From Geobacteraceae bacterium (GTDB taxonomy: Bacteria; Desulfobacterota; Desulfuromonadia; Geobacterales; Geobacteraceae), in NCBI GenBank assembly GCA_024281055.1, contig JAMXLF010000033.1:1-64000 (forward strand): a stretch of 64,000 bases of DNA. Reading direction: 5' to 3'. Under the pieces are notes generated by a model. The model ran no database searches. It saw nothing but the letters and a program-made list of their open reading frames with translations, and was not told where the DNA came from. Both the position numbers and the translations under genes were made by a program. Of the stretch, positions 34,037 to 62,233 are shown in pieces (within the stretch, counting starts at the first letter, position 1; the number at the start of each line of letters is the position of its first letter).

Positions 34037-34303
34037 ATGACTGAACAGGAGATCATCGACAAGACAAACCAGGTCTTCGAGGAATCCTTTGAAATTGAAA
34101 GAAAGCGACTGGTACCGGACGCACAGATATTTTCCGACCTGGGGCTTGACAGTCTCGACATCGTGGACTTGATCGTTGCATTGCAGAACAGTTTCGGTGT
34201 CAAGATAAGAAATGAGGAAAAGGTGCGAGAAATCCGTACGCTCCAGGACATCTATCACTTTATTTATGCCATCAAGAACGGAGAAGGCACATCGGACACA
34301 TAA
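34037..34303 (+). CDS. Acyl carrier protein, first
   Basis: This 88-residue ACP has the phosphopantetheine serine S39 in LGLDSLDIVDLI. The following helices (VALQNSFGVKI, LQDIYHFIYAI) match the ACP fold. GGAGG directly upstream selects the ATG at 34037 rather than 34016. It lies between a ketosynthase and a PlsC-like acyltransferase. It carries the growing chain, but which of the three ACPs is used for priming, elongation or tailoring is not visible. Confidence 0.93.
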   Translation: MTEQEIIDKTNQVFEESFEIERKRLVPDAQIFSDLGLDSLDIVDLIVALQNSFGVKIRNEEKVREIRTLQDIYHFIYAIKNGEGTSDT

Positions 34304-34305
34304 CG

Positions 34306-43572: not shown

Positions 43573-43573
43573 A

Positions 43574-44242: not shown

Positions 44243-44254
44243 GAAGGGCTTGGC

Positions 44255-46893: not shown

Positions 46894-48079
46894 TCATTTC
46901 TCCAAGGAATCCGTCTGGTGTGCGGTGCCGGTATTCAACAACCGGGATACCGTGCAGCAGGTGGTGGCCGAGTGCAGGGAGATCCTTCCGAACGTCGTGG
47001 TAGTCGACGACGGCAGCACTGACGCCGATATAGCGGGCTTACTTTCCGGTCTCGACGTGGTCGTGCTGCGCCATGAGCAGAACCGCGGCAAGGGTGAGGC
47101 GCTCCTGACGGCGTCGCGGTATATCGAAGGCCAGAATGGCGCCTACATGATCACGATCGATGCCGACGGGCAGCACCGTCCCCGGGACATCGTGAAATTC
47201 CTGTCGCACCTGCGGGAGGATACGCCCACCATCGTCATTGGCTGCAGGGATTTCAACACCCCCAATGTTCCCAAGTCCAGCCGTTTCGGCCGGTCCTTTG
47301 CCAATTTCTGGCTGCTGGTTGAGGCCGGCAAGGTGATCGCCGACTGTCAGAGCGGTTTCCGTGCCTATCCGGTTCGGCATCTCAATCGGCTCACCTTCAA
47401 GGGGGCGCACTACGATTTCGAGGCCGAAGTGCTGGCCAAGGCTGCCTGGGCAGGTCTTGAGCTTACCTCGGTCGATATCGACGTCATTTATCCGAAGCCC
47501 GAAGAGCGCGTGTCGAGCTTCAAACCGTTTCTTGACAACCTGCGGCTGACGCGCATCCACTCGATGCTTGTGGGCAGGCGCATGCTGCCGCTCAAGCACC
47601 GCAAACTCGTGGTCGCGCCCAAGAGCTTCGACCTATCGTTGCTGCGGCATCCGGGTAAGGTTCTGCGGATGCTTCTCCAGGAAAGCGCGACCCCCGAGGG
47701 GCTGGCGCTTTCGGCAGCTGTCGGCATGTTCCTGGCGGTGCTGCCGCTGTTGTTCGCGCATTCGATCGTCATCCTGTACGTATCGCTGCGCCTCAACCTG
47801 AACAAGATCGTGACGCTGAACGTCCAGCACCTGGCGATGCCGCCGTTCATGCCGGCTCTGTGCATCGAGGTGGGCTATTACCTCAGGCATGGCCGCTGGT
47901 TGACCGACCTCTCCTATGGGACCATCTTCCAGCAGTTTTCGTCGCGTCTGTATGAATGGTTCATCGGTTCCCTGTTTGTCGCCCCGGCCGCGGCGGCACT
48001 CGTCGGCCTTGCGATGTACGCGGGCGCCGCGGCGATCAAAAAGGTCAGGTGCGCTCATGTCTCCAAAGAAGGATGTTGA
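46880..48079 (+). CDS. Family 2 glycosyltransferase with C-terminal DUF2062 membrane domain
   Basis: This 399-residue protein combines a GT2 domain (CAVPVFNNRDTVQQVV, VVDDGSTDADIA, ITIDADGQHRPRDI, DCQSGFRAYPV) with a C-terminal membrane region of about three helices resembling DUF2062 (ALSAAVGMFLAVLPLLFAHS). It probably transfers a sugar from an activated donor to a lipid at the inner membrane. The start at 46880 follows GGAGAGGA; the frame upstream is a shadow. In aryl polyene clusters a glycosyltransferase/acyltransferase fusion fills this place; here the acyltransferase is the separate, overlapping next gene. Confidence 0.88.
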   Translation: MPQGNHFSKESVWCAVPVFNNRDTVQQVVAECREILPNVVVVDDGSTDADIAGLLSGLDVVVLRHEQNRGKGEALLTASRYIEGQNGAYMITIDADGQHRPRDIVKFLSHLREDTPTIVIGCRDFNTPNVPKSSRFGRSFANFWLLVEAGKVIADCQSGFRAYPVRHLNRLTFKGAHYDFEAEVLAKAAWAGLELTSVDIDVIYPKPEERVSSFKPFLDNLRLTRIHSMLVGRRMLPLKHRKLVVAPKSFDLSLLRHPGKVLRMLLQESATPEGLALSAAVGMFLAVLPLLFAHSIVILYVSLRLNLNKIVTLNVQHLAMPPFMPALCIEVGYYLRHGRWLTDLSYGTIFQQFSSRLYEWFIGSLFVAPAAAALVGLAMYAGAAAIKKVRCAHVSKEGC

Positions 48080-48959
48080 GCGCAAGCGTGGCAACCGGCT
48101 CGGCATCTGGTTTTTTCGAGTCTCAGTCAGGGTGTTCGGGCTGGGGGGGGCCTATGGGCTCCTCTATTTCGTCTGCCTCTACTACCTGATCATCGACCGC
48201 GCGCTTGTCGATGAGTCGCTGGCCTTTGTCCGGAGGCGCTTTCCCGGGCACGGCTCTGTGCGGCTGTTGTTTGACGTCTACCTCCTCTTCGTAAGCCAGG
48301 GGAAGTGTCTCATCGATCGGTATGCGGTGGCTGCGGGATATGATGATATCGCCATCGAGATCAAGGGCTTCGACAAGTTACGGCAGCTCCTCGCCGAGCA
48401 GGACAAAGGCTTTATTCTGCTGACAGCCCACGTGGGCAACTGGCAGTTGGCCATGACGGCGCTCAGGAAATTCGGGAGAACCGTCCACCTGATGATGCGC
48501 CCGGAGGACAACAAGGCGGTCAAAAATACTCTGAACCTCGATAGCGGGGGCGAAGGGGTCAGGATCATTTTTACCGACGACCCGCTAGGCAGTGTTATCG
48601 AGGCGATGAAGGCGCTGGACCAGGGAAGTCTCGTTTCGATCATGGGCGACCGGGCTTATGGCTTCAGCGCCACCGAGGTGCCCTTTCTTGGGGGTGACGT
48701 CCGGTTTCCCTACGGTGCGTTCAGTATCGCCGCCGCAGCACGGTGTCACGTGGTCGTTTTTCTCTCCGCGAAGGTCGGCACGAAGAAATACATCGTCGAT
48801 GTATCCCATGTCATACCGGCGCCGGCCGGCGGGCGCGGCACGCGGGACGCGGAGATGCGGACGGCCCTCCGGGAGTTCGCACGTATTCTGGAAGAGTATG
48901 TCATGAACTACCCTTTCCAATGGTTCGTATTCCGTGATATATGGAAATCAAATGATTGA
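48057..48959 (+). CDS. LpxL/HtrB-type lipid acyltransferase
   Basis: This 300-residue inner-membrane protein has an N-terminal membrane helix (about 25-48) and the lipid A acyltransferase fold. Visible are FILLTAHVGNWQLAM (the HX4 motif region), RPEDNKAV, IIFTDDP and GSLVSIMGDRAYGFS. The C-terminus ends with PFQWFVFRDIW, typical of this family. It overlaps the GT2 gene by 23 bases. It likely acylates the sugar added by that enzyme, or uses the ACP-bound product as donor. It is too divergent to be a lipid A housekeeping enzyme with certainty. Confidence 0.87.
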   Translation: MSPKKDVERKRGNRLGIWFFRVSVRVFGLGGAYGLLYFVCLYYLIIDRALVDESLAFVRRRFPGHGSVRLLFDVYLLFVSQGKCLIDRYAVAAGYDDIAIEIKGFDKLRQLLAEQDKGFILLTAHVGNWQLAMTALRKFGRTVHLMMRPEDNKAVKNTLNLDSGGEGVRIIFTDDPLGSVIEAMKALDQGSLVSIMGDRAYGFSATEVPFLGGDVRFPYGAFSIAAAARCHVVVFLSAKVGTKKYIVDVSHVIPAPAGGRGTRDAEMRTALREFARILEEYVMNYPFQWFVFRDIWKSND

Positions 48960-48989
48960 CGGATTGTCAGCATGATAAAGGAGAGAATA

Positions 48990-49274
48990 ATGGAGAACAG
49001 GGAACAGGAACTGCAGAAGATACGCAAGGAGCTCAAGGAGATAATCGTGCGGGATCTTGCCCTCGAGGACATCACGGTCGAAGACATCAAGGACGACGAG
49101 GTTCTGTTCGGTGAAGGGCTCGGCCTGGATTCCCTCGATGCCGTCGAGATCGTCGTTCTCCTGCAGCGAAATTTCGGCCTCGAAGTGAAAAACATGGAAC
49201 AGGGACGCGAGATTTTCTATTCCATCGACACCATTGCGAACTTCATCTATGACAGCAAGCACCCGGCTGTATGA
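48990..49274 (+). CDS. Acyl carrier protein, second
   Basis: This 94-residue ACP carries the phosphopantetheine serine S48 in LGLDSLDAVEIVVLL. It has a charged N-terminal extension of about 20 residues. AAGGAGAG immediately before the ATG at 48990 decides the start over 48972. Its stop overlaps the start of the deacetylase-like lipoprotein. It is probably the carrier used by the acyltransferase just upstream or by the ketosynthase pair downstream. Confidence 0.93.
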   Translation: MENREQELQKIRKELKEIIVRDLALEDITVEDIKDDEVLFGEGLGLDSLDAVEIVVLLQRNFGLEVKNMEQGREIFYSIDTIANFIYDSKHPAV

Positions 49275-50284
49275 CGGGTGGGTTTAAGGTTACGTTGCGA
49301 TGGATGATGCTGGTGGCAACGGGGCTTCTCCTCGTGTCCTGCGCCGGAGCAGAGCCCCGTCCGACGACCACTGTCTCCCACCCTGCGATCCCCCTGGTCA
49401 CGTTCGTCTTTGACGACGGAAACGACACGGATTATCTGGTTGGGAAAGAAATCTTTGCCGAAAGGGGAGAGGTAGCCTGTTCGGCCATTACGACCGACTG
49501 GCTCAACACGAAGGACCATCTGACCACTGCCCAGGCCAGGGCCCTGCAGGCTGCTGGGTGGGAGATCATGAGTCACACCGTTTCCCATCCGAACCTGAGA
49601 TCGCAGACGCGGGCCGAGGTCGACCACGAACTGTCGCGCTCGAAAGAGGTGCTCGAGGGGCTAGGGCTCAACGCCACGAATCTCGTGTATCCCTACAACA
49701 AGAACGACGAGATGGTCCGGGAGGTTGCCAGCAAGTACTATCGCTCCGGCAGGGGGGGGGCCAACGCGTTCAACACGGGGGCGACCGACCCCTATTTCCT
49801 GAAGTCGTTCACAATAAAGCATGATCTGGCCCTGATGAAGGCGCAGATTGACCGCGCGTACGCCGACAAATCCTGGCTGGTCCTCTACCAGCATGAGATA
49901 GACGTCAAGGTAAGGCTGACCCACAGGGAGGGAACCTTTGTCCGGGGCGAAACGCTCAGACTCAGCCCGTCCGGGACCGAAGCCCGGTATGTTACCCGAC
50001 TCTGGTGCCCGATTTACGGATATGCCTACTATTTCGTTCCTTTGACCGGAACGCCGCAGCCGGGGGACACCATTACCGGGGCGACGAGTGGCGCGACTGC
50101 ACGCATCGGTCGCATCGTCTACAACGAGCGCGCGCAGCTTGCGGAGATGATCGATTACATCCACCGGAACTATCCGGATATGCGCATCGTGACAACCGAA
50201 CAGGGCCTTGACCTGCTCGGTTTTCCTCGCCAGCGTCACCCTGATAAAAAAATAGAGACCGGCAAGGCCAGCGGTGCCTTGTAG
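49271..50284 (+). CDS. Polysaccharide deacetylase-like (NodB-type) lipoprotein
   Basis: This 337-residue protein has a lipoprotein signal (MMLVATGLLLVSCAG) and a NodB-type carbohydrate esterase 4 fold: VTFVFDDGNDTDY supplies the metal-binding aspartates and SHTVSHPNL the H-x3-H pair. The C-terminal third (about 215-290) is a beta-rich insert, after which a catalytic-like histidine region is weak. It would remove acetyl groups from an N-acetylated sugar in the periplasm, so the lipid product may be glycosylated with an amino sugar. The start overlaps the ACP stop by 4 bases. Confidence 0.82.
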   Translation: MTGGFKVTLRWMMLVATGLLLVSCAGAEPRPTTTVSHPAIPLVTFVFDDGNDTDYLVGKEIFAERGEVACSAITTDWLNTKDHLTTAQARALQAAGWEIMSHTVSHPNLRSQTRAEVDHELSRSKEVLEGLGLNATNLVYPYNKNDEMVREVASKYYRSGRGGANAFNTGATDPYFLKSFTIKHDLALMKAQIDRAYADKSWLVLYQHEIDVKVRLTHREGTFVRGETLRLSPSGTEARYVTRLWCPIYGYAYYFVPLTGTPQPGDTITGATSGATARIGRIVYNERAQLAEMIDYIHRNYPDMRIVTTEQGLDLLGFPRQRHPDKKIETGKASGAL

Positions 50285-50300
50285 CGGCTTACCCGACTAG

Positions 50301-51479
50301 ATGAAAGAAACCAAAATACTCATAACAGGACTGGGTGCCGTCTCTGCCGCGGGCACCGGCCTTGCGGAGACGCTTGCAACGTTCGAGAATCGCAAACGGA
50401 ATGCGGACACCGTCTCGCTCTTTGCCACGGCTTTGACGAATCCGGTCTTCCAGGTGCAGGGGATCCCGTCCGAGTATCATCTGGACGGTCGCAGGACCCT
50501 CAGCCTGGCACTGATGGCGGTCGATCAGGCGCTCGACGATGCCGGTCTCTCGGACCTTTCGACTTTTCGCGTCGGGGTCTGCATGGGGACGACGGTGGCG
50601 AGCCAGCTGAACGACCTGGAGTTCTACCGTTCCTACCGGGAGCGGGGCACCGCACCGATGACCTCGGTGGACCGCTTTCTCAAGGGGAACCTCGCGGAAT
50701 ATATTGCCCGCAGGATAAACGCGCGCGGCCCGGCGCTCACGGTTGTCAACGCCTGCTCTTCCGGCACCGATGCCCTTGGTATCGGCCTGTCGTGGCTCAA
50801 GGGAGATCTGTGCGACATCGTGATCGCCGGCGGAGCCGACGAGCTGAACCATGTCCCCTACTGCGGTTTCGCCTCCCTCGGCATCATGAACCCGGCCCTC
50901 TGCGCGCCCTTTGACCGCAACCGGAAGGGGCTCAACCTAGGTGAGGGCGCCGGGGTCCTCGTCATCGAGAAGGAAGCCGTGGCGCGACAGCGGGGAAAGG
51001 CCGAAGACCTCTTTCTCGCCGGCTACGGCTCGATGGGCGATGCCTATCATCTCACCGCGCCCAGCCCGGACGGGGTAGGGCTCAAGGCGTCGCTGCGCGC
51101 GGCCCTCGACGAAGCTGGTATAGCGCCGGAGGATGTGAGCTTTGTCAATGCCCACGGGACCGGGACGCTCGACAACGACCTGGTGGAAGGGAAGGTCCTG
51201 GCTGAAACCTTCGGCCCGCATCTCAACATGCTCTCGACCAAGGGCTTTACCGGGCATACACTCGGAGCCGCCGGCGGGCTCGAAGCTGTGTTCACCGCCG
51301 CGGGACTCAGGGAGGGATGGATCCCGGCCAGCGCCGGTTTCGAGAACCGGGACGAGGCGATCCCCCTCGCTCCGGTCAGGGAAAAGACCACTGTCACGGG
51401 CCGTTACGCCATATCGACGTCGCTCGCCTTCGGGGGAAACAATGCGGCCATCGTAATCGGCCGGGAGGTGGGCCGATGA
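50301..51479 (+). CDS. Beta-ketoacyl-ACP synthase, third
   Basis: This 392-residue condensing enzyme has a complete triad: C152 in VVNACSSGTDALGIG, histidine in NAHGTGTLDND and histidine in GFTGHTLGAAGGLEAV. PFDRNRKGLNLGEGAG is conserved. It overlaps the degenerate ketosynthase gene after it by 4 bases, giving a second ketosynthase/partner pair in the operon. Two such pairs with a third stand-alone enzyme suggest two chains, or two elongation stages, are made. Confidence 0.92.
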   Translation: MKETKILITGLGAVSAAGTGLAETLATFENRKRNADTVSLFATALTNPVFQVQGIPSEYHLDGRRTLSLALMAVDQALDDAGLSDLSTFRVGVCMGTTVASQLNDLEFYRSYRERGTAPMTSVDRFLKGNLAEYIARRINARGPALTVVNACSSGTDALGIGLSWLKGDLCDIVIAGGADELNHVPYCGFASLGIMNPALCAPFDRNRKGLNLGEGAGVLVIEKEAVARQRGKAEDLFLAGYGSMGDAYHLTAPSPDGVGLKASLRAALDEAGIAPEDVSFVNAHGTGTLDNDLVEGKVLAETFGPHLNMLSTKGFTGHTLGAAGGLEAVFTAAGLREGWIPASAGFENRDEAIPLAPVREKTTVTGRYAISTSLAFGGNNAAIVIGREVGR

Positions 51480-52513
51480 ACGTACTCGGCATCGGCACCA
51501 TTTTTTCGCGTGGTCTGGGTATCGCCGCATGGGAAGAAGCCCTGCGCACCGGCTGGCAGAAGCCGGCCGATACCGGGTACCTGGTGAATCTCGATACCGT
51601 TGCCGACCGGACGCTTCTCAAGAAGATCCGGCGCGCTGACAAGCTGAGCAAGATGGCCGTTCTCGCCGCCGCGGACGCTCTCGCCGACAGCGGGATAGGG
51701 GAGGGGGTGCGGAAAAGCCTCGGCATCATTCTCGCCACTGCCTTCGGCGCCCACGTGATCACCTTCTCGTTTCTTGACGACGTCCTGGACTACGGAGAGG
51801 CCAATGTCTCGCCGACCACGTTTTCCAACTCGGTCCATAACGCCGCCGCTTCCTACGTTTCTTCGGCGCTGGACATCCAGGGACCGACCCTGACGGTGAC
51901 GCAATTCCGGTTTTCCTTCCAGGCGGCACTCCAGTTGGCGAAATGCTGGCTTGAGCAGGGGCGTTGCGATTATCTCCTCGTCGGGGCGGTTGATCAATAC
52001 GGCGATGTGCTTGGTTACGTCTCTGATCAGAAACTCACTACGGCGCAAGACGGAGTGATCCGACCGTTTACCTTCACCCCGACCTGTCAGGTGCCGGGCG
52101 AAGGGGCCGTGTTCTTTCTCATGGGGAACGAGCCTGCCGGGAATGGCTATTGTGTCGTCGAAGCCGTCCATGTGAACGGCGATCCGGACCAGGATAAACG
52201 GGTAGACGTCAACATCATCGATGCCGATGGGATGCTTCCGGACGAGTCTGTCTATCGCGCTTCCCTGGCGCCGGGCATCCCCGTGGCGGCGTATGCCCCG
52301 TTGTACGGCAGCATGATGACCGGGAGCGCTTTCAACCTTGCCGCTGCCGCCCTAATGCTGAAGCATCAAACCCATTACGCCACGCCCGTACAGGACAACC
52401 CCCACGGCCTGCTCCTTGTGCGGGAAACCCGGCCTGCCGACATCCGGTCGGTCCGTTGTATCAGCTGTAACTGCCACGGAGAGAAGGCCGTCATGTACAT
52501 GGGTAAGCTGTAA
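51476..52513 (+). CDS. Ketosynthase-like protein without active-site cysteine (chain-length-factor-like)
   Basis: This 345-residue protein is a ketosynthase fold in which the nucleophile region reads TLTVTQFRFSFQAALQLA. The cysteine position aligns with arginine, and the C-terminal histidine motifs are replaced by APLYGSMMTGSAFNLAAAA. FSNSVHNAAASYVSSAL and VPGEGAVFFLM preserve the fold. It pairs with the complete enzyme just upstream (ATGA overlap), like chain-length factors of type II polyketide systems. The start at 51476 is inside the overlap; longer starts are shadows. It should be catalytically dead as a condensing enzyme. Confidence 0.83.
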   Translation: MNVLGIGTIFSRGLGIAAWEEALRTGWQKPADTGYLVNLDTVADRTLLKKIRRADKLSKMAVLAAADALADSGIGEGVRKSLGIILATAFGAHVITFSFLDDVLDYGEANVSPTTFSNSVHNAAASYVSSALDIQGPTLTVTQFRFSFQAALQLAKCWLEQGRCDYLLVGAVDQYGDVLGYVSDQKLTTAQDGVIRPFTFTPTCQVPGEGAVFFLMGNEPAGNGYCVVEAVHVNGDPDQDKRVDVNIIDADGMLPDESVYRASLAPGIPVAAYAPLYGSMMTGSAFNLAAAALMLKHQTHYATPVQDNPHGLLLVRETRPADIRSVRCISCNCHGEKAVMYMGKL

Positions 52514-52564
52514 GGGCGGCGTTGATACTGATAACGTCGAATCTCAAGAAAGTAACCTGATTTT

Positions 52565-53788
52565 ATGCGCCGCAAGAAATACTTTTTGGCACCCGGCAAT
52601 AATTCGCTCTCTCACATCGTCAAATGTCTTGCGATCAGCGAAGCGCTCACGGCGCGGGGCCACGAGGCTCTCGTTGCCGTCGGCAAAAAGCATGCGTCTT
52701 TTCTCCGTCATCAGGGGATCGAACACGTTGTCCTGCCCGATATCCAGGAAACCGACGAGTCCGGGTTCCCGTCCGTGGAGTGGTTCAGGCAGTCGGAGAA
52801 GATCGTTGCCTGCATGAAGGCGGAAATTGACATTTTGAAAACCTACCGACCGGACCGGGCGCTCGGCGTGTTCCGGTTCACGCTGAAAGGATCGGCGCAG
52901 ATCGCCGGGGTCCCCTTCGACTCCCTTGTCTGCGGCTGTATACTGCCCGATTCCGACCAGGTCCTCGGGTTTGCCGAGGGAGAGCCCGGAAGGGAGGCGC
53001 AGCGGATCATTCTTGACGGGTTTTTCCGCTATGCAGGGGCAAAGATCGAGGCGGCACAGACGTCGTTCGGTTTGCCGACATGCCATGGGGATATCCGGCA
53101 CGTGCTGAAGGGTGAGCGGACCTTTCTCTGGGACTTCCCGGAGTTCGCCCCGGTGCCGCAGAAGTCGGACATGTTCCATGTGGGACCCCTCGTCTGGAAC
53201 AACTGGCCAAGTGATGCGGTTGACCACGAAACGCTGGTCGTTAGCGACCGGCCGCTCGCCATCGTGGCATTCGGTACCTGTACCGTGTACCTCCCGTCCG
53301 CGAGAAGGCTCATCGGGGTTCTGGTCGACCTTGGATACCAGGTGCTGATTGCCGCAGGAGGACAGAGCGAATTTCTCGGCATCATGCCCGACGACCCGCG
53401 AGTCGACGCCTATACCTTCGTGTCGCTCCACGAAATTTTGCCCCATGCCGCGCTCCTGGTCACCCACGGGGGACAGATGACCGTATTCGAAGCCCTGCAG
53501 CACGAGGTTCCCGTGGTCGTAATGCCCTTTCAGCCCGAGCAGGCCCACAACGGCGTGTGTCTCGAACGCCTCGGGTGCGGCGTGCGGCTTGTTCCTCCCC
53601 AGCCGTTCCAGGGCAATCCCGGCATCTACATCGACGCCCTCGACCGGATGAGCGACGTGGAGATCGGTGACAAAATCAGCGCCCTGGTGCAAGACCCGAG
53701 TACGCACAGATGCCTGGCGGACGTGGCGAAGATCATTGCTCGCTACAGTGGGGCCGAAACAATTGCCGATCTGCTCGAGGAAGATTAG
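52565..53788 (+). CDS. UDP-glycosyltransferase-like protein (GT1/MGT type)
   Basis: This 407-residue GT-B-fold protein begins with FLAPGNNSLSHIVKCLAISEAL and carries a PSPG-like donor-binding motif (VTHGGQMTVFEALQHEVPVVV, then PFQPEQAHNG). It resembles macrolide and carotenoid glucosyltransferases. It probably glycosylates a hydroxyl on the cytoplasmic lipid intermediate. It is the second glycosyltransferase of the operon beside the GT2 protein. The ribosome site is weak (GAAAGTAA). It precedes the hydrolase-radical SAM fusion by 1 base. Confidence 0.87.
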   Translation: MRRKKYFLAPGNNSLSHIVKCLAISEALTARGHEALVAVGKKHASFLRHQGIEHVVLPDIQETDESGFPSVEWFRQSEKIVACMKAEIDILKTYRPDRALGVFRFTLKGSAQIAGVPFDSLVCGCILPDSDQVLGFAEGEPGREAQRIILDGFFRYAGAKIEAAQTSFGLPTCHGDIRHVLKGERTFLWDFPEFAPVPQKSDMFHVGPLVWNNWPSDAVDHETLVVSDRPLAIVAFGTCTVYLPSARRLIGVLVDLGYQVLIAAGGQSEFLGIMPDDPRVDAYTFVSLHEILPHAALLVTHGGQMTVFEALQHEVPVVVMPFQPEQAHNGVCLERLGCGVRLVPPQPFQGNPGIYIDALDRMSDVEIGDKISALVQDPSTHRCLADVAKIIARYSGAETIADLLEED

Positions 53789-53789
53789 C

Positions 53790-55553
53790 ATGCCGGTGGG
53801 CATCATTCTGGTGCATGGTTTTTCCGGGACTCCCGATGATTTCTTGCCACTGACAGAGAAACTGGTGGCGGTCCACGGTACCGAGGCTGTCTCGGCTCTC
53901 ACGCTCCCAGGTCACACGGTTGGGGAGTCCCCCTCCTTCGACCGGACGGCCTCCGTTGCGGCGATTGCCGAGGCCATCGGCAGATACCGGCGGGAAGGGC
54001 GGACCATTCTCCTCCTGGGACATTCCACCGGCGGCATCCTGGCACTGGCGACGCTCATGGAGCATCGCCTCGCTCCCGATCTGCTGATCCTCGCTTCGGT
54101 GCCGAAAAGGATCGATCTGGCGTACCTCGAGCGCTGGAACCGGCACCGCACGGGGAGAGAGGCTATCTCGTTTGCCTCTCTGGCACAGGCGATTTCCCTC
54201 GTCAACACGGTTGGCTCCCGACAAGTGAAGGGAGAGTTTCCTGTCGTCGTCATGCATGGCGCTGACGACGACCTGGTTCCGTGTACGGAGGCCTCTGGCT
54301 GGGCAGAAAACGGTTTCGAGCGCCGGGCACGCACCGTTATCGTTCCGTCGGCAGGCCATGACCTTTTTCGCGGGACAAACAGTGCGCTGGTGATTGGCCT
54401 GGTCATGGGCACGATTGCCGATCATCTCCGTGCGCTGACGGCCGAAGACACGAGCACGCTCGATGCGCTCGCATCCGTTGAGCCCGAGGCGACTCGTTTT
54501 CTCGCCCGCTCGCCGTCATCCGGGCAGCACATCGCCCGCTGTCCGAGCGGCCGAGCGGTCGCGGGGGAAAAGCCCTTGCTGGCGCCGAGCGTGGATACCG
54601 GGCCGGTCTTCGCTAATATCGAGATCACGACCCGCTGCAACCTGTCCTGTTCCCACTGCGCCCGTACCGGCGCAATAATGCAGGGGGAGGACATGGACAA
54701 AGGGACGTTCACCGCTGTTCTCGGCCTGCTCCCCCATGCCTACCGGATAACGCTGGTGGGCCTTGGGGAACCGCTCCTGCACCCGGACGTCGTCCATTTC
54801 GTAGCGGAAGCTTCTGCACAGGGGCGGAGAACCGGGCTCGTGACCAATGCCATGCTCCTGGACCCGGAACTTTCGCGCAAACTGATCGAGGCGGGACTTG
54901 ATTCCATCGCCTTCAGCATCGACGGCGCGACCAATGATATGGTGTCGGACATGCGTCCGGGGACTGACCTGAAACGGGTGATCGCGAACATCAAGGGCTT
55001 TGTAGAGGCGGCGAAATCTTCGCGCTCCTTATCGACCGCGGTTTTTTCCGCGGTGTCGGCGCGGAGCGTCCCCCACCTGGATGAGCTCATCGATCTCGTC
55101 GCCGGTCTCGGGGTGCACGTTCTGATGGTGAGCGATCTCAACTTCGGGAAGAACGTCAACCTGACGCTCTGGCAGAACTGGGACAAGGCAACGGCGGCAC
55201 AGGTGAAGGGAGGAGTAGCCCGCTCCTTCAAGAAGGGTCTACCCATCCTCTCCGTGCGCGGGCTCGAAGAGTTCGGCCTCTGGAAGCGGTACGGCAGTTA
55301 TCTCCTGGTCCCACCGGATCAGCTTGCCCGCCGCTCCGAGCGGCACACGTGGTGCTATTCCCCCTGGCAGACCGTGCCGGTCAGCGTACGGGGGGAGGTG
55401 ACTCTCTGCGACTGCCAGCCTGAGGTCGTCCTCGGCAGTCTCCTCGATCGGCCTCTCGCGGACATATGGAGCGGCCCTGCCATGGTCGAACACCGCAGTC
55501 GCATGCTGGGCGCCGATCCGCCCGAGGCGTGCCGGCTCTGCCCGCGGTTTTAA
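53790..55553 (+). CDS. Fusion: alpha/beta-hydrolase + SPASM-type radical SAM enzyme
   Basis: This 587-residue protein has an N-terminal alpha/beta-hydrolase (1 to about 215): HGFSGTPDDF oxyanion region, nucleophile Ser79 in GHSTGG, acid region MHGADDDLVP and base SAGHDLF. A linker follows, then a radical SAM domain from about 270 with C283/C287/C290 in CNLSCSHC, GLGEPLLH and FSIDGATND. A SPASM-like C-terminus holds CYSPWQTVPV, LCDCQPE and EACRLCPRF. The single ORF runs continuously through the junction. The hydrolase may release or transfer a thioester that the radical half has modified. I know of no described enzyme of this layout. Confidence 0.87.
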   Translation: MPVGIILVHGFSGTPDDFLPLTEKLVAVHGTEAVSALTLPGHTVGESPSFDRTASVAAIAEAIGRYRREGRTILLLGHSTGGILALATLMEHRLAPDLLILASVPKRIDLAYLERWNRHRTGREAISFASLAQAISLVNTVGSRQVKGEFPVVVMHGADDDLVPCTEASGWAENGFERRARTVIVPSAGHDLFRGTNSALVIGLVMGTIADHLRALTAEDTSTLDALASVEPEATRFLARSPSSGQHIARCPSGRAVAGEKPLLAPSVDTGPVFANIEITTRCNLSCSHCARTGAIMQGEDMDKGTFTAVLGLLPHAYRITLVGLGEPLLHPDVVHFVAEASAQGRRTGLVTNAMLLDPELSRKLIEAGLDSIAFSIDGATNDMVSDMRPGTDLKRVIANIKGFVEAAKSSRSLSTAVFSAVSARSVPHLDELIDLVAGLGVHVLMVSDLNFGKNVNLTLWQNWDKATAAQVKGGVARSFKKGLPILSVRGLEEFGLWKRYGSYLLVPPDQLARRSERHTWCYSPWQTVPVSVRGEVTLCDCQPEVVLGSLLDRPLADIWSGPAMVEHRSRMLGADPPEACRLCPRF

Positions 55554-55594
55554 CGAACGTACGTACCTTAATTTTAACGGAGGTTTCAACAGCC

Positions 55595-55837
55595 ATGACC
55601 GTCCAGGAGATTGAAAGCAAACTGATCCAGGTGATCTCGTCCATCACCAACCAGGACCCGGCGGCGATCACGCCGGACAAGCCGTTCCCCGACCTGGGGA
55701 TCGATTCCCTCGGGTTCGTGGAAATCCTCGTCTTCATCGAGAAGAATTTCAAGCTGCAGCTCATCTCGACCCCTCTGAACAAGCAGGATTTCGAGACGGT
55801 CCACAGCCTGGCGTCGTTCATCAGCAGAGAACTGTAA
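55595..55837 (+). CDS. Acyl carrier protein, third
   Basis: This 80-residue ACP has S38 in LGIDSLGFVEILVFI. It is the shortest and most canonical of the three. GGAGG about 11 bases upstream supports the ATG at 55595. It lies between the hydrolase-radical SAM fusion and the condensation-type acyltransferase (4 bases to its start). It is a good candidate to present acyl chains to that enzyme. Confidence 0.93.
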   Translation: MTVQEIESKLIQVISSITNQDPAAITPDKPFPDLGIDSLGFVEILVFIEKNFKLQLISTPLNKQDFETVHSLASFISREL

Positions 55838-55841
55838 GCGC

Positions 55842-57167
55842 ATGCTTCTGAACTACCTTTCAGTCAGGAACAAGTATTACCTCAACGGGTTTGACTGGGT
55901 GATGGGGGTGATCGATCTCATCATGCGGAAGACCACCTGTGCCGGAAACGCCTCCCAGGTGGTCTTCATGCTCGACACCCCTCCTGACGAGACTGCCTTC
56001 CGTGCCGCGCTGCAGCGATTTCTCGCGCTCTTCCCGGTCATCGGCGGGAGCGTGTCACGTCATTACACCCTCACCCCCTACTGGAAAATGCCGAAAGGAA
56101 ATGCTGCCCCGACGGTCCCACTGACCGTCACCCGCCTGGATGACGCAGCCGGACCGGACGGTCTCCTGGCCGCCGTTACCTACTCCGTCAACACTCCCTT
56201 CGGGAATGCCCACGAACACCTGGTGTTTCATCTGGTTTACGGACGCAACGAGCAGTGCCTGGCCATGACGTTCGATCATCGCCTCTTCGATGCCCGGGGG
56301 GCCGAATCCTTCATGAACCTTTTCCAGGAATTTCTGGCCGGGGGCGAAGACTCGCGGATCGCGGAGAACGTCCGTCTCACCCAAGGATTCGATCTCAGAC
56401 CATGGAAGCCCAAGTTCCTCGCCGGCCAAGCCGTGAACCGGAAGATGATCGCCCTTTCCCGGGAGACCATGCGGTCGCTCCCCATCAATCTTGGCGGGAA
56501 ACCGGGATTCAGGTACCGGATAGTCAGTTTCAGTCGGGAAGAGGCGGAGGGAATCTACACCAGGGCGTACGCCGAGGCCGGCTACCTCATGATCATGCCG
56601 TATCTCTTTGCCCGGGTGTTCCAGACTCTCCATGGGGTGTTCGAGCGGCGTGGGGTCCCCCACGGCGCCTACGTGGTCCCGGTTTCCACCGACCTGCGCC
56701 AGGCTAAGGACATCCGGGAGGAACTCTTCTTCAACCAGAACTCCATGTTCTTTTTCCAGGTTCAGCCCGGGGATGTTCCCGACCTGAAGCGGCTGATCGG
56801 AGTGATCAAGGAGCAGATGTACGAACAGGTCCAGTCCAAGTTTCCGCATAACCTCATGGCCGCCTCGTCGCTCACGCGGATCGTGCCGCTGCCGGTGCTG
56901 CGCCGCATATTCAATCTGCCGCTCCAGGGAAAGATCGCATCGTTCTGCTTCTCCCACGTGAGCAAGTGCTCGTACACCTCCCACGACCTCATGGGGTGCC
57001 GCATCGTGAACGTCTTTCACACGCCCCGCATGCCCGTACCGCCGGGGATCGGCATCTTCTTCAACTCCTTCGACGGCCGGCTGAATGCGACGATCTCCTG
57101 GCTGGACGGCACTTTCACCGATGCTGAGGTCGCCGCGATCGAGAGCGAACTGCGGTGCGGTCTCTGA
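55842..57167 (+). CDS. Condensation-domain-like acyltransferase (HxxxD)
   Basis: This 441-residue protein has the fold signs of condensation/wax-ester-synthase/PapA-type acyltransferases: an N-terminal half with FDHRLFDARGAESF (H146 and D150 of the HxxxD centre) and a C-terminal half with VVPVSTDLRQ, FFNQNSMFFFQV and GIGIFFNSFDGRLNATISW. Members make esters or amides from ACP- or CoA-bound acyl groups, without phosphopantetheine of their own. Directly after an ACP gene, it may esterify the finished chain to an alcohol, or couple two chains. Its stop overlaps the FAD oxidoreductase by 13 bases. Confidence 0.83.
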   Translation: MLLNYLSVRNKYYLNGFDWVMGVIDLIMRKTTCAGNASQVVFMLDTPPDETAFRAALQRFLALFPVIGGSVSRHYTLTPYWKMPKGNAAPTVPLTVTRLDDAAGPDGLLAAVTYSVNTPFGNAHEHLVFHLVYGRNEQCLAMTFDHRLFDARGAESFMNLFQEFLAGGEDSRIAENVRLTQGFDLRPWKPKFLAGQAVNRKMIALSRETMRSLPINLGGKPGFRYRIVSFSREEAEGIYTRAYAEAGYLMIMPYLFARVFQTLHGVFERRGVPHGAYVVPVSTDLRQAKDIREELFFNQNSMFFFQVQPGDVPDLKRLIGVIKEQMYEQVQSKFPHNLMAASSLTRIVPLPVLRRIFNLPLQGKIASFCFSHVSKCSYTSHDLMGCRIVNVFHTPRMPVPPGIGIFFNSFDGRLNATISWLDGTFTDAEVAAIESELRCGL

Positions 57168-58384
57168 AAGGTAATACACACACTGTGGTTGCCTGCGACG
57201 TGCTGGTCGTCGGAGGAGGAGTTACCGGTGTGGCAGCTGCTGTGGCTGCGGCCCGTACTGGCAACCGGGTTGTTTTGATCGAGAAGGAAATGGTCCTGGG
57301 GGGGACCGGGACCCGGGGGATGCTTCACACCATCTGCGGGCTCTACCTGAACGGCGACGCGGAGCCTGTGGAGACGCTGAACGAAGGCCTGTCGCGGGAG
57401 ATTGTCGCCGCCCTCAAGATACGTTCCCTGGAGTGCAAACCGGTGCGAATCGGCAAGGTTTTCGTCCTCCCGTATTCTGCAACCGATCTTCAGGATGTTC
57501 TTGGGACGTTATGCCAGAGCGAGCGGAATCTCACCATACTGTGCGATGCCACTGCCCTGCACTCGACCGCTACTGACGGACGCGTCACCACGGTGACCGC
57601 TGATCAAGCCGGTAAGATCCTCCAGATCCAGCCGCAGGTGGCGATCGACTGTACGGGAAACGGTGATCTCGCCTGCATGGCCGGTGCGGAGTTCGATCTT
57701 TCCCCGCCAGAGGAAATCCAGCTTGCCGGATGTATCGCACGGGTCCGGGGCATTCAGGAAACCGGCGATTCCTTGGCGCTCAAGGTTCCCTACGTGCTCG
57801 CCAGGCTTGTCGCGGAGGAGGAGCTCCCGCCCGAGTTTCGCTTCACGGCCTATGCCTCGGGAAGGACTCCCGGCGAAGGGTACCTCAAGTTCAATATGCC
57901 GGGAGAGGGCGGAGAGGAGTATGTCCTGAGAATGGCCGGGCGCGCCCTGAAGCTTCTGGCCGAACGATTGCCGGCATTCAGTAATGCCATAGTCGACGGG
58001 ACCTCCCAAAGGGTCTTCCCTCGGGAGGGGCGGCGGGTCCTCGGTGAGTATACGCTGACCGAAGATGACGTTCTCTCTGCGGCGAAGTTTCCCGATGGCG
58101 TGGTCAGGAACGCCTGGCCCATCGAACTGTGGGACCGGGAGCGTGGGGCTGTGTACCGTTACGTCCCAACGGGGGATTACTACGAGATCCCCTTCCGCTC
58201 TCTCACTGTAAAGGGTTTCGCGAATCTCTTCGTGGCCGGTAGGTGCATCTCGGTGAGTCATGAGGCCCATGGTTCGACGCGGGTCATGGGCACCTGTCTC
58301 GCCCTCGGTGAGCAGGCAGGCCGCGCTGCAGGTCGTTTTGTTGCGACGGGAAAATATACCGTTGCACCCGAAGAGAACAACTGA
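57155..58384 (+). CDS. FAD-dependent oxidoreductase (FAD_oxidored type)
   Basis: This 409-residue flavoprotein starts at GTG 57155. It has CDVLVVGGGVTGVAAAVAAA with EKEMVLGGTGTRGM, then a substrate domain, and the C-terminal GFANLFVAGRCISVSHEAHGS signature of FAD_oxidored proteins. Its reaction could be desaturation, reduction or epoxidation of the chain. It overlaps the acyltransferase, which suggests a late tailoring step. Unlike the CrtI-like gene at 31293 it lacks a phytoene-desaturase-type N-terminal block, so the two flavoproteins are distinct families. Confidence 0.82.
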   Translation: MRSLKGNTHTVVACDVLVVGGGVTGVAAAVAAARTGNRVVLIEKEMVLGGTGTRGMLHTICGLYLNGDAEPVETLNEGLSREIVAALKIRSLECKPVRIGKVFVLPYSATDLQDVLGTLCQSERNLTILCDATALHSTATDGRVTTVTADQAGKILQIQPQVAIDCTGNGDLACMAGAEFDLSPPEEIQLAGCIARVRGIQETGDSLALKVPYVLARLVAEEELPPEFRFTAYASGRTPGEGYLKFNMPGEGGEEYVLRMAGRALKLLAERLPAFSNAIVDGTSQRVFPREGRRVLGEYTLTEDDVLSAAKFPDGVVRNAWPIELWDRERGAVYRYVPTGDYYEIPFRSLTVKGFANLFVAGRCISVSHEAHGSTRVMGTCLALGEQAGRAAGRFVATGKYTVAPEENN

Positions 58385-58422
58385 GATCGTTTTCATACGA
58401 TCGTATTGCAAGGAGGGTCTGT

Positions 58423-59889
58423 ATGTCACAGGCCGCACAACAGAAAAAAGATAACCTGACCATTATGCTGATCAAGCCGCACTCGCACCTTCTGGTGGCC
58501 AAGTGCCTGCAGAGCTTTCTCCATCTGGAGCCGCTGGAGCTCGAGATTGTTGCCGGCGGCGTGCCGCGGGAACATACTGTGCTCATCTATGACATCGCAC
58601 TTGAGAAAGACCCGGTGGCCTTCTTCGAGGCGCGGGTCCGGGAGAAGAATCCCGACATCATCGGCTTTACCTGCTACAGCACCCAGGCGGCCATCGTGAA
58701 GGACCTGGCCCGCCGCGCGAAAGAGATCGCTCCGTCCGTCGTGACCGTAGCGGGTGGCATCCATCCGACGATCATTCCGGCCGATTTTGCCGGCTCCCCC
58801 CTCGACATTGTCGTGCGCGGGGAAGGGGGGACGGCATTTCGCGAGATCGTGAAGCGGTACAAGAGCGGCGAGCCCCTTGCCTCCGGCGATGCGATCCTCT
58901 CGGTAGCCGATCCGGACTTCGCGGCCAAGGCCGCGGCCAAGCCGCCTCTCTTTCCTCCGGTGGAGGAGATTCCCCGCCCCAGGCGGGACCTGGTGGACCG
59001 CTCCCGCTATTTCTCCGTCTGGACCTCGCCGGACGCAAACAACCGGCTCAAGACCATGTATCCCCGGATCGCCACCATCCGCACCTCCACGGGGTGCGCC
59101 TACGACTGCTCGTTCTGCGTGGTGCACCACATGATGAACGGCAAGTATCTGCAGCGAAGCCCCGAGGATGTGGTTGACGAAATCTCCCGGATCGAGGAGG
59201 AGTACATCTACTTCGTGGATGACGAAACCTTCCTGAATGCCGAGCGACTCACCGCCATCGCGAACCTACTCAAGGAGCGGGGGATCAGGAAGAAATACGT
59301 GAGCTGGGCCCGGGTCGACACCATCATCCGTCATCCCGAGCTCTTCAAGCTCTGGAAGGAGGTCGGTCTCCACATCGTCTACGTGGGGCTCGAGGCCATG
59401 GACGAGGGACGCCTCAACGACTACAACAAGCGGACCACGGTGGAGATGAACTGGAAGGCGATCAAGATCCTCCGCGACTGCGGCATTCTTCTCCACGCTT
59501 CCCTCATGGTCGATCCCGGCTTCTCGGTGGAGGACTTCCGCCGGCTCGAACAGGTGATCATCGACCTCATCCCGGCGGAGGTCTCCTTCACGGTCTTCTC
59601 GCCATCGCCCGGCACCCCGCTCTGGCACCAGTACAAGGACGACTTCATCCTCGACCCGTACCTTTACTACGACTGCATGCACAGCGTGCTCCCGACGAAG
59701 CTCGACCGGAAGCTCTTCTATGCCCATTTTGCTCGGCTCTACACCATCGGCTGGCGCAACAATCCGCTGCGCCTCAACAAGGTCAAGGTCCCGTTCCGGG
59801 AGATTTTCAGGAGCATCGCCATGGGGACAAAGTACATCCTCGCCATGCGGAATATCTACAAGAATTACCCGCCGCAGACGAAGCAATGA
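58423..59889 (+). CDS. B12-binding-type radical SAM enzyme, third
   Basis: This 488-residue protein has an N-terminal B12-type domain (VLIYDIALEKDP, IIGFTCYSTQAAIVKDLA, VTVAGGIHPTIIPADF, IVVRGEGG) and a radical SAM domain with C225/C229/C232 in GCAYDCSFC, YFVDDETFLNAERL and SLMVDPGFSVEDF. The C-terminus (about 400-488) adds helices. AAGGAGG directly precedes the ATG. Relatives include methyltransferases such as hopanoid C2/C3 methylases and B12-dependent cyclases. The strong ribosome site and late position suggest a tailoring step. Confidence 0.87.
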   Translation: MSQAAQQKKDNLTIMLIKPHSHLLVAKCLQSFLHLEPLELEIVAGGVPREHTVLIYDIALEKDPVAFFEARVREKNPDIIGFTCYSTQAAIVKDLARRAKEIAPSVVTVAGGIHPTIIPADFAGSPLDIVVRGEGGTAFREIVKRYKSGEPLASGDAILSVADPDFAAKAAAKPPLFPPVEEIPRPRRDLVDRSRYFSVWTSPDANNRLKTMYPRIATIRTSTGCAYDCSFCVVHHMMNGKYLQRSPEDVVDEISRIEEEYIYFVDDETFLNAERLTAIANLLKERGIRKKYVSWARVDTIIRHPELFKLWKEVGLHIVYVGLEAMDEGRLNDYNKRTTVEMNWKAIKILRDCGILLHASLMVDPGFSVEDFRRLEQVIIDLIPAEVSFTVFSPSPGTPLWHQYKDDFILDPYLYYDCMHSVLPTKLDRKLFYAHFARLYTIGWRNNPLRLNKVKVPFREIFRSIAMGTKYILAMRNIYKNYPPQTKQ

Positions 59890-61322
59890 ACATATTCTCG
59901 GCCATCAAACAGGAAACAGCGGCGCTTGCCCACCGGACCGCGGTAATTGAGGGAGAGAAGCGGCTGAGTTACGGGGAGTTGCTCCGTGCCGCGGAGCTGG
60001 TGGCGGGATCGTTGGAAGCGAAGGGAGTGGGGCCGCTGCACCGCGTCGGCCTCCTCTGCGACGACAGCATCGATTACATCGTCGCGAGCCTGGCCATCCT
60101 CTCTCTTTCGGCCGCGATCGTCCCGATCTCTCCGGAACAGTCCCCGGAAGAGGTCGACACGGTCATTGACCGGATCGACGTCGATTTCCTCATGGCGGAG
60201 CCGCGGCTGCGTGACGAGTCGTATTGCGAGCCGCTGCAGACCGACGGCTTCGTAGCAAAGGCATTCGTCATCGGGAAGAGGGCGGTCAGCGAACAGCCGA
60301 ACGAAGAGTATTTCCGGTGCAACCCCGCTTTCATCCGGTTCAGCTCAGGGACGACCGGGACAAGCAAGGGGGTGGTCCTGTCTCATGAGGCGATCCTCGC
60401 CCGGACCGACGCGGCGGACCGGGGGCTGCAAATCACCCAGGAGGATACCGTCCTCTGGGTGCTGTCCATGAGCTACCATTTCGTGGTCACGATCCTCCTC
60501 TTCCTGCGCCGCGGGGCGACGATCGTTCTCTGCGGCCACCGCTTCCCCGAATCACTCATCGACGGGATTCTGAACCACCGGGGCACCTTCATCTATGCAT
60601 CTCCTTTCCATTACAGCCTTCTGTCGCGCACCGATGCCCTGCCGGCCGATGCCCTTAACCATGTCCGCCTTGCGGTCTCGACCGCCATGAAACTCCCGGA
60701 GGCGGTGGCCGAGGAGTTCTGCGCCCGTTTCAGCTTCGAGCTGAGCGAGGCTTACGGCATCATCGAGGTGGGGCTCCCTTTCGTCCGGCTCGCCGGGGGA
60801 AAGGAGAAGCTGGGGTCGGTCGGCAGGGCGCTCCCCGACTTCGAGATCCGTCTCGACAACAGGGATGCGGACGGGGTGGGGGAGATCCTGGTAAGGGGGA
60901 AGGGGATACTCGACGCCTATTATTCCCCCTGGCAAGGGCGGGAGGGAATCCTCACGGACGGCTGGTTTGCAACGGGCGATCTCGGGAGGATCGATGCGGA
61001 CGGATTTCTCTCCATCGTCGGCAGGGAAAAGGACGTGATCAATTTCGTGGGGATGAAGGTCTTTGCCCAGGAAGTGGAGGCCGTCATCAACCGCCATCCA
61101 CTTGTCCAGGAATCCCTGGTGTACGGGGTGCCGCATCCCCGGTACGGCGAGTTACCCACGGCGAAGATCGTGCTTCGGGTGGGCGCTGCTCACGATGCCG
61201 TGGTTGACGAGCTGCGCCGTTTCTGCTACCAGCGCCTGGCACAGTACAAGGTGCCGAAGGAGTTTCAATTCGTTGACCACCTGTCGAAAACCGCCAGCGG
61301 GAAAATAAGACGGCAGCGCTAA
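59886..61322 (+). CDS. Acyl-CoA/ACP synthetase (AMP-forming), second ligase
   Basis: This 478-residue ANL-superfamily enzyme has the phosphate-binding SSGTTGTSKGVVLS, SEAYGIIEVGLP, ATGDLGRIDADGFLSIVGRE and the catalytic-lysine block KTASGKIRRQ at the C-terminus. It activates a carboxylic acid, probably a fatty or aromatic acid, for transfer to CoA or an ACP. It is about 50 residues shorter than usual CoA synthetases, with a trimmed N-terminus. It closes the operon: a strong hairpin begins 14 bases after its stop. It overlaps the preceding gene by 4 bases. Confidence 0.9.
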   Translation: MNIFSAIKQETAALAHRTAVIEGEKRLSYGELLRAAELVAGSLEAKGVGPLHRVGLLCDDSIDYIVASLAILSLSAAIVPISPEQSPEEVDTVIDRIDVDFLMAEPRLRDESYCEPLQTDGFVAKAFVIGKRAVSEQPNEEYFRCNPAFIRFSSGTTGTSKGVVLSHEAILARTDAADRGLQITQEDTVLWVLSMSYHFVVTILLFLRRGATIVLCGHRFPESLIDGILNHRGTFIYASPFHYSLLSRTDALPADALNHVRLAVSTAMKLPEAVAEEFCARFSFELSEAYGIIEVGLPFVRLAGGKEKLGSVGRALPDFEIRLDNRDADGVGEILVRGKGILDAYYSPWQGREGILTDGWFATGDLGRIDADGFLSIVGREKDVINFVGMKVFAQEVEAVINRHPLVQESLVYGVPHPRYGELPTAKIVLRVGAAHDAVVDELRRFCYQRLAQYKVPKEFQFVDHLSKTASGKIRRQR

Positions 61323-61335
61323 CGTTCAATGAAAA

Positions 61336-61382
61336 ACGGCCCTCCTGAAGGATGACATGAAAGTCTCCTTTTGGAGGGCCGT
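61336..61382 (+). terminator. Strong hairpin terminator of the lipid operon
   Basis: ACGGCCCTCC (61336-61345) pairs perfectly with GGAGGGCCGT (61373-61382). Inside the loop AAGGATGAC and GTCTCCTT form a second, bulged stem. A short T-rich stretch (ATGTTTTC) follows. It starts 14 bases after the last stop and lies before the convergent gene at 61412, so it could stop transcription in both directions. Confidence 0.8.
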
Positions 61383-61411
61383 ATGTTTTCGCCCGGATTG
61401 TTGTCGGAACG

Positions 61412-62026
61412 TCAATGTTTGTTGATGTATTTCGTCAGGTCTCCGGCGGCCTCCTCCGCAGCTGATTCGATCGCGACACCGCGGCGCGCAAAATGCCGGA
61501 ACTTGGCAACGGTCCTGTTGTTAGCGTCGACCAGGAGCACCTCGATCCCGATGCCTGCCTGCATCTGGTGTCCGCCCACAAACGGTATCCAGGCCTTGCC
61601 CGGACTGTAATCCTGGGTTTCGAAAACGCAGAGCTCGGCTGTCAGTGTTCCTTTGCTCCCTTTGCTCTCCCTGTCGTCAAAAGCACTCTTGAAGGTCGCT
61701 TTCACCGCCTCCACCAGCGACTTGCTGTGAGTGCCCGATTTGTTTTCCACCTTTCCAAGTCTTATGTTGTACTGAGCCAGATTTTGCGCTGCATTTGACG
61801 AGACCCAGTCAATGTTGTCTCCCTTGACCATATCCGAATAATCTTTGATATTCCCCTTGTGGAATTCCTTGTCCTTGTATTCGTCGCTGTCGACGAAGCG
61901 GTCTGAAGAACAAAGCCCGGTCATGGGTGACAACAGAACCATCAGTAGCAAGAGACAGAGGCAACGGCAGATTGCCATGTACCGCTTGTTGTGTGTGGAC
62001 CTCATTTTCGAGCCATGCGTTTTCAT
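61412..62026 (-). CDS. Secreted protein of unknown function (DUF4410-like)
   Basis: This 204-residue protein has a basic start and a long hydrophobic signal sequence (LCLLLLMVLLSPMTGLC; a lipobox-like TGLC is possible). The mature part has IRLGKVENKSGTHSKSLVEA, LTAELCVFETQDYSPGKA and IGIEVLLVDANNRTVAKFRH, a pattern like DUF4410 outer-membrane-associated proteins. A GGGAGGG site precedes the ATG on the minus strand. Its role is unknown. It converges on the lipid operon, so it is regulated separately. Confidence 0.75.
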   Translation of the reverse strand: MKTHGSKMRSTHNKRYMAICRCLCLLLLMVLLSPMTGLCSSDRFVDSDEYKDKEFHKGNIKDYSDMVKGDNIDWVSSNAAQNLAQYNIRLGKVENKSGTHSKSLVEAVKATFKSAFDDRESKGSKGTLTAELCVFETQDYSPGKAWIPFVGGHQMQAGIGIEVLLVDANNRTVAKFRHFARRGVAIESAAEEAAGDLTKYINKH

Positions 62027-62233
62027 AGTTTTTCCCTCCCTCGTTGATTGTGTTGCTCAATAAAATTTTCCACCTGCATTTACAAACGGTGATCGATAAT
62101 CTATGATGCTTATGGTCAATGTCATGTAAATGGCCCAGATGATAAACACTTTACAAGCACCTGTCAAGAAAGGGATTGACGGTCTTGCCGGGTATTCAGG
62201 GAAAATATTATGACGCTACAGAGGTTGTCATTC

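Follow-up and report, generated by a model that had tools for sequence, protein, structure and literature searches.

Within the window, by which we mean the whole stretch of 64,000 nucleotides analysed here, a single gene encodes, in one frame, a serine hydrolase and a radical SAM enzyme that ends in a Twitch tail. As judged from sequence, the predicted catalytic residues of both domains are conserved among homologues, the gene is coupled to and co-occurs with a glycosyltransferase (GT) gene, and the pair is associated with gene clusters of the ladderane or aryl polyene type. The joined form recurs in distantly related bacteria, nearly always behind the same GT, which suggests that the GT and the fusion protein probably decorate an unusual outer-membrane lipid.

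Features of the window, with positions counted from its first nucleotide (res., residues of the fusion protein)
Feature	Position	Strand	Remarks
Lipid cluster	28933..62926	+	extent of the genes examined rather than mapped boundaries
B12-radical SAM protein, TIGR04072 (rSAM_ladder_B12)	45490..46893	+	623 bits, cut-off 360
GT1/macrolide-type glycosyltransferase, 407 aa	52565..53788	+	stop 1 base before fusion ATG
Esterase-Twitch radical SAM fusion gene	53790..55553	+	587 aa; full-length homologues known
Alpha/beta-hydrolase domain, res. 1-216	53790..54437	+	Abhydrolase_6, fold, predicted triad in 16/16
Hydrolase triad codons (putative)	Ser79 54024-54026, Asp160 54267-54269, His190 54357-54359	+	
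Helical linker, res. 217-262	54438..54575	+	P232 kept in 16/16, F237 and H247 in 15/16 aligned
Radical SAM core, res. 263-407	54576..55010	+	CNLSCSHC, with C283 (54636-54638), C287, C290
Twitch (half-SPASM) domain	55353..55550	+	C522-X12-G-X4-C540-X-C542 ... C581-X2-C584; PF13186
Acyl carrier protein (ACP)	55595..55837	+	PF00550, 41.2 bits

The first-pass annotation had described a hydrolase and a radical SAM domain joined in one frame, and the reading frame, Pfam matches and homologues all bear this out. The open reading frame runs unbroken from its ATG to the stop codon at 55551-55553. A longer version with a GTG start at 53667, present in the raw list of reading frames, was rejected because several homologues share M1 and the preceding gene extends as far as 53788. 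The domain order is serine hydrolase, helical linker, radical SAM core and one-cluster Twitch tail, and Pfam matches exceed their cut-offs for Abhydrolase_6 (residues 5-193, 51.1 bits, cut-off 26.3), Radical_SAM (PF04055, residues 277-407, 69.4 bits, cut-off 29.5) and SPASM (PF13186, residues 522-585, 40.6 bits, cut-off 21.5). An AlphaFold2 model of the fusion, built with 15 family members as input, has a mean pLDDT of 90.2 and a pTM of 0.91. This pTM, together with a homologue that matches over its full length (E 9.5e-160) and comes from a different genus in the same family, places the fusion beyond chance, and a frame accident or annotation overlap as its source is ruled out by the reading frame, the homologues and the model.

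In the hydrolase half, Ser79 lies within GHSTGG (residues 77-82) as first annotated, and the acid and histidine expected further on are Asp160 and His190. By fold, nucleophile elbow and Ser-Asp-His triad, whose catalytic roles are putative and assigned by alignment, this half is a member of the alpha/beta-hydrolase superfamily. With Z scores of about 24-25 (2.1-2.9 A over about 205 residues), esterase D, Est30 and monoacylglycerol lipases are its best fold matches. Esterase D, Est30 and bacterial monoacylglycerol lipase share the fold and the triad with it at 14-24% identity, whereas the radical SAM partner domain is a feature of the fusion described here. The hydrolase half scores 24.2 bits against the thioesterase family PF00975, below the cut-off of 26.4.

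The radical SAM motif was correctly placed at C283/C287/C290. This CX3CX2C motif is present in 15 of the 16 aligned proteins (it is lost in L062) and, together with PF04055 above cut-off, assigns the second half to the radical SAM superfamily. The tail had been called SPASM-like, which holds for the PF13186 match but not for a complete SPASM domain. In the available part of PMC6231123, SPASM is defined by seven cysteines, CX9-15GX4C-gap-CX2CX5CX3C-gap-C, and Twitch is its one-cluster version. The tail reads CX12GX4CXC...CX2C and ends in CPRF, so that it contains SPASM cysteines one to four of seven and one additional cysteine. The Twitch motif CX9-15GX4C-gap-CX2C occurs in 16/16 aligned proteins, which have five or six cysteines in their last 120 residues; five of these are conserved and the window's protein ends at CX2CPRF, outside the SPASM subclass in spite of the PF13186 score. 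Set against the published definition, this pattern leads us to assign the tail to Twitch rather than to full SPASM, and it fits a domain with one predicted auxiliary cluster.

Residues 270-587 match BlsE (Z 24.9, 3.2 A, 282 residues), SkfB (24.7), DesII (23.1) and SuiB (22.9) in fold; as Z differences below 1 were treated as ties, BlsE ties with the peptide enzyme SkfB. BlsE, BtrN and DesII are among the nearest solved structures, and GDGT-MAS, a lipid-chain enzyme, is also a PDB match. BtrN and DesII act on sugars or an aminocyclitol. Among the best 25 of 51 NCBIfam matches of the radical SAM half, the nearest families are the putative metalloenzyme maturases TIGR04311 and TIGR04317, at 111.8 bits (cut-off 400) and 102.1 bits (cut-off 380), respectively; the BlsE family TIGR04466 scores 43.9 bits against a cut-off of 400. 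Sequence networks are said not to predict function in the SPASM/Twitch subfamily in the part of PMC6231123 available.

The architecture search that the first-pass annotation had suggested shows that the fusion recurs in other genomes, with 17 intact loci, one per genome and the window included (L052-L058 each, L060, L061, L062, L063, L068, L075, L076, L077 and L085). Two peptide patterns, both within the radical SAM half, were run against a collection of 84,980 species genomes and gave 16 loci, of which 14 belong to the fusion family and two have the radical SAM part only (L066, L067). In 13 of the 14 family loci, hydrolase sequence continues in frame into radical SAM sequence; among these, L059 is cut by a contig end and contains the hydrolase from residue 125 on, and L064 is joined up to a frame break. 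The sole exception, L065, is broken and has no visible hydrolase. Homologues consistently encoded as two unlinked genes with no link to ACP clusters, named beforehand as the outcome that would count against the first-pass annotation, were not found by these radical SAM-half patterns. L059, L064 and L065 were left out of the intact set, and duplicates were not counted (L033 and L079 on the L056 contig, L009 and L029 within L068, L034 for L075, L035 for L077, and L081, L084, L088 and other short loci at places already counted). Both broken loci lie in MAGs (L064:4044-6075 and L065:7181-8071); in each, a GT fragment precedes a fusion that is frame-broken in L064 and partly missing in L065, reflecting either decay or assembly error.

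The record titles of the carriers name Desulfobacteraceae, Desulfobacterales, deltaproteobacteria, Nitrospirota/Nitrospirae, Phycisphaera, Planctomycetota, Rhodocyclaceae, Propionivibrio, a gammaproteobacterium and Myxococcota, and the majority are MAGs. Among the carriers, Propionivibrio soli SG131 (L063) has the title of a strain and not of a MAG, which may allow a gene test there. Closer to the window, the search covered 57 related genomes in addition to its own; one of the 57, G004, has a full-length homologue with 45% identity. A query of hydrolase plus linker against 395 genomes of the phylum matched four at E <1e-30, including the window's, and gave weak matches only (E 7.5e-7 to 1e-3) in 46 further genomes. 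These fusion counts are lower bounds, since the hydrolase query overlooked the diverged fusion of G336, whose hydrolase Pfam detects at 29.1 bits (cut-off 26.3). This deeply diverged GT and hydrolase-radical SAM pair (L076:7897-10694, G336:C25) lies beside LolA, DUF3261 and MMPL genes and a TIGR04072-like gene, and suggests that the architecture is older than hydrolase sequence similarity alone reveals.

Conservation was assessed on a 16-row alignment of every intact locus except L085. Ser79, Asp160 and His190 are kept in all 16 proteins, the most diverged member included, as are C287, C290 and the five tail cysteines (C522, C540, C542, C581, C584), and every protein ends in CPRF or CPRY; C283, and with it the complete set of three radical SAM cysteines, is kept in 15, with Gly in L062. 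Both active sites therefore look constrained. Mean identity is 0.37 for the hydrolase half versus 0.47 for the radical SAM half. Four radical SAM proteins that stand alone in related genomes and align over the whole radical SAM half at 26-27% identity (L011, L012, L013, L022) were considered as split versions and rejected, since the 1.5 kb around them is free of hydrolase and GT matches. The same distance around the stand-alone radical SAM matches of the window's own genome (L002, L003, L005) contains neither a hydrolase nor a GT match.

The fusion had been placed between a glycosyltransferase and an ACP gene, and both neighbors are as described. The upstream gene belongs with the GT1 natural-product glycosyltransferases (EryCIII-like_C 35.6 bits, cut-off 31.7; UDPGT 31.8 bits, cut-off 19.5), and its relatives in the PDB include oleandomycin glycosyltransferase, YjiC and CalG, whose acceptors are small molecules. 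A GT lies directly upstream of the fusion in 16 of the 17 intact loci. Reading in-frame starts by eye at 15 junctions, we found an overlap of the two genes at nine and a gap of 1-2 bases at six; the gap is 2 bases in L085. Five of the 395 phylum genomes contain a GT match at E<=1e-20, each adjoining a fusion; four are those picked up by the hydrolase query, and the fifth is G336, where a GT of 28% identity is followed by the diverged fusion. In the phyla of G449 (titled Nitrospirota) and G453 (titled Gammaproteobacteria), GT matches occur in 2/198 genomes, both with the fusion and G449 included, and in 1/249 genomes, namely G453. In the phylum of G450 (titled Phycisphaera), 2/199 genomes match, one of them G450. 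The GT relative of G532 in this phylum (74.8 bits, E 9.2e-21) lies in an 18-kb stretch without a hydrolase or radical SAM match, and was treated as a generic GT despite its passing E-value. Distances among GT, hydrolase and radical SAM sequences agree (Mantel r 0.86-0.91 over 15 pairs, 0.76-0.85 without L076), as expected of a long-standing unit, and shared species history gives the same agreement. The only intact locus with no GT match, L062 (10001-11863), is also the only aligned member without C283; in this single case loss of the partner and loss of radical chemistry may go together.

The lipid cluster around the pair encodes KS/CLF, ACPs, a FlxY-like ligase, a desaturase-like flavoprotein, LolA, an MMPL exporter, DUF3261, a DUF2062 GT2, an LpxL-type acyltransferase, a polysaccharide deacetylase, LolB and several radical SAM proteins. 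A linked TIGR04072 gene marks it as ladderane-type, and the cluster mixes ladderane-type features with an aryl-polyene export set. The pair sits among ladderane- or aryl-polyene-type genes in 11 of 17 intact loci (window, L052, L053, L054, L056, L057, L060, L061, L075, L076, L085). In the other six (L055, L058, L062, L063, L068, L077) no window-like KS or ACP gene occurs within the stretch read; the weaker matches among them are one LpxL-type and one radical SAM gene (L062), another radical SAM gene (L077) and SDR genes (L055, L068). The genomes of these six loci carry a marker elsewhere: TIGR04072 scores 608 bits in G447, 551 in G450 and 684 in G004, barely passes 360 in G132 (369.9) and G454 (364.4), and DUF3261 is present instead in G455. 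In G004, a single contig, the pair (L068:12273-15240) lies about 2.1 Mb from the lipid cluster (L087), and thus the two genes may act unlinked to it.

TIGR04072 above cut-off or DUF3261 was found in all 16 genomes with intact loci covered by this check; in the seventeenth, G711 (L085), the pair sits among window-like genes. TIGR04072 passes in 14 of 18 genomes, the exceptions being G452, G453 and G455 (DUF3261 present) and G456, the genome of the broken L064, where the best score is 223 bits and DUF3261 has no match. DUF3261 was rejected as a general marker, being present in only 6/18 genomes. Across the phylum, TIGR04072 passes in 84/395 genomes, five of which have the fusion. Leaving out the window's genome, it passes in 4/4 fusion genomes versus 83/394 overall (p 0.002), and at >=560 bits, a level chosen after the scores were known, in 3/4 versus 21/394 (p 0.0005); these p values are guides, as the genomes are not independent.

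Each part of this system is of a known kind, and no named family was found for the fusion with its coupled glycosyltransferase. Pfam names the separate domains only, and no NCBIfam family passes its cut-off among the best 25 of 45 matches of the fusion or the best 25 of 51 of the radical SAM half. A literature search, with most subscription journals outside its scope, returned no description of a serine hydrolase-Twitch radical SAM fusion with a coupled GT. A DUF726 alpha/beta-hydrolase occurs with a radical SAM domain in one protein family of Trichinella, according to the part of PMC11878206 available, but it is eukaryotic, of another hydrolase family and with other extra domains. The ladderane-type clusters of Rattray et al. 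2009, in the available part of PMC2649909, contain radical SAM genes including a B12-binding type, a phytoene-desaturase-like flavoprotein, and phenylacetyl-CoA-ligase-like, divergent KS and polysaccharide-deacetylase-like genes, kinds that the window's cluster shares; the words 'hydrolase' and 'fusion' are absent from that text. The same source describes a syntenic cluster in Desulfotalea psychrophila, in which ladderanes were nevertheless undetected. The E. coli aryl polyene cluster resembles the window in its ACPs, KS, ligase, thioesterase, LolA, RND/MMPL exporter, DUF3261 and acyltransferases, whereas the ape gene list in the part of PMC8253772 available names neither a radical SAM protein nor such a fusion, both of which the window has.

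We propose, with somewhat less than even confidence, that the fusion is a bifunctional tailoring enzyme forming one glycolipid module with the upstream GT, a reading suggested by the constant GT partner, its natural-product relatives and the ester-cleaving fold. The GT1 enzyme would attach a sugar to a polyene or ladderane-type lipid made by the KS/ACP system, or to its precursor, and the serine hydrolase would then cleave an ester on that glycolipid. The Twitch radical SAM domain would generate a 5'-deoxyadenosyl radical and abstract hydrogen from the exposed glycoside, which it might oxidise, decarboxylate or rearrange, with the auxiliary Fe-S cluster taking up an electron. Action on the sugar is favored by the structural nearness of BlsE, BtrN and DesII and by the place of BlsE (cytosylglucuronate decarboxylase) after a glycosyltransferase. 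In the available part of PMC3715490, CGA synthase of the blasticidin S pathway, the nearest functional precedent for such a module, makes from UDP-glucuronic acid the glycoside that is the substrate of BlsE; the solved BlsE chain has no hydrolase domain, unlike the fusion. BtrN, a Twitch dehydrogenase with one auxiliary cluster in the part of PMC6231123 available, likewise has no hydrolase, and the tail of the fusion has an extra conserved cysteine (CXC). Still more tentative is the complete order of glycosylation, deacylation and radical change of the sugar, which would place a radical-modified sugar on ladderane- or aryl-polyene-type outer-membrane lipids in several phyla. Against the glycolipid reading we count the maturase families ranking ahead of the BlsE profile, the tie of BlsE and SkfB, which leaves sugar and peptide enzymes unseparated, the missing GT match in L062, the two barely passing TIGR04072 scores and the frequency with which TIGR04072 passes in the phylum anyway; the window's polysaccharide deacetylase could also act on a sugar.

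Several other readings bear on the same evidence. The radical SAM domain might instead alter the acyl chain or an aryl head group, by dehydrogenation or C-C bond formation, with the hydrolase freeing or proofreading a lipid ester and the GT capping the product. GDGT-MAS among the PDB matches is consistent with this, as is the O-methyltransferase-like gene that follows the fusion in L061 and L063, since an O-methyltransferase is expected near an aromatic head group. Chain action has also been proposed for radical SAM genes of ladderane-type clusters (PMC2649909, available part). The partner conserved above all others is nevertheless the GT, and the six loci without KS or ACP in the stretch read and the distance of the pair from the cluster in G004 fit late tailoring better, so that we regard action on the chain as unlikely. 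That the two domains have no common substrate, the fusion merely fixing their stoichiometry or location and the hydrolase having its own role, agrees with the lower conservation of the hydrolase half, but the domains are fused in 17/17 intact loci with the triad kept in 16/16 aligned proteins, and this appears distinctly unlikely.

The first-pass annotation had suggested that an acyl-ACP might be radically modified, with this step coupled to hydrolysis of its thioester or to cyclising release. In its favor, the fusion is real and conserved, both active sites are retained and KS/ACP lipid clusters are the setting, and the adjoining ACP, the KS and further ACP gene in the cluster and the weak PF00975 match would suit the rest. 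However, the gene that follows encodes an ACP in just 2/17 intact loci (window and L052), while the GT is the constant neighbor; the fold is nearest to carboxylesterases and monoacylglycerol lipases, PF00975 stays under its cut-off, and release or transfer could fall to other enzymes of the cluster, namely a 4HBT thioesterase (41960) and an LpxL-type acyltransferase (47916). ACP-linked release is therefore not upheld, and we consider it improbable, slightly more so than separate roles for the two domains. Least probable, and very doubtful, is a peptide or metalloenzyme maturase, whose radical SAM half would act on a protein or cofactor, with the lipid setting of secondary importance; the best profile matches and the nearness of SkfB and SuiB in fold point this way, against which stand profile scores far under cut-off, the association with lipid clusters and a GT of small-molecule type. 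With glycolipid tailoring as the preferred reading, the fusion would give a way of approaching the head group of lipids of the ladderane and aryl polyene type, and the GT-fusion gene pair would serve as a marker in the search for producers.

Other genes of the cluster are also of interest. At least six radical SAM-domain genes lie in 28933-59889 (28933, 36353, 44255, 45490, 53790, 58423). The last of these (58423-59889) encodes a B12-radical SAM protein whose best match is the hopanoid C-3 methylase HpnR at 228 bits (cut-off 650); it is not HpnR, and is perhaps a lipid methylase. The protein encoded at 55842-57167 has no Pfam match at E 0.001 and a predicted model that was set aside as too poor (mean pLDDT 50.5), and contains, by eye, an HxxxDxxG motif that we take to resemble that of condensation-type acyltransferases. 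A weak ketosynthase match at 43550-44242 (18.3 bits, cut-off 20.8) may represent a degenerate chain-length factor next to the KS gene at 42409. The acyl-CoA ligase at 35007-36356 closely resembles flexirubin FlxY, with 469 bits against a cut-off of 520, which hints at an aryl starter unit.
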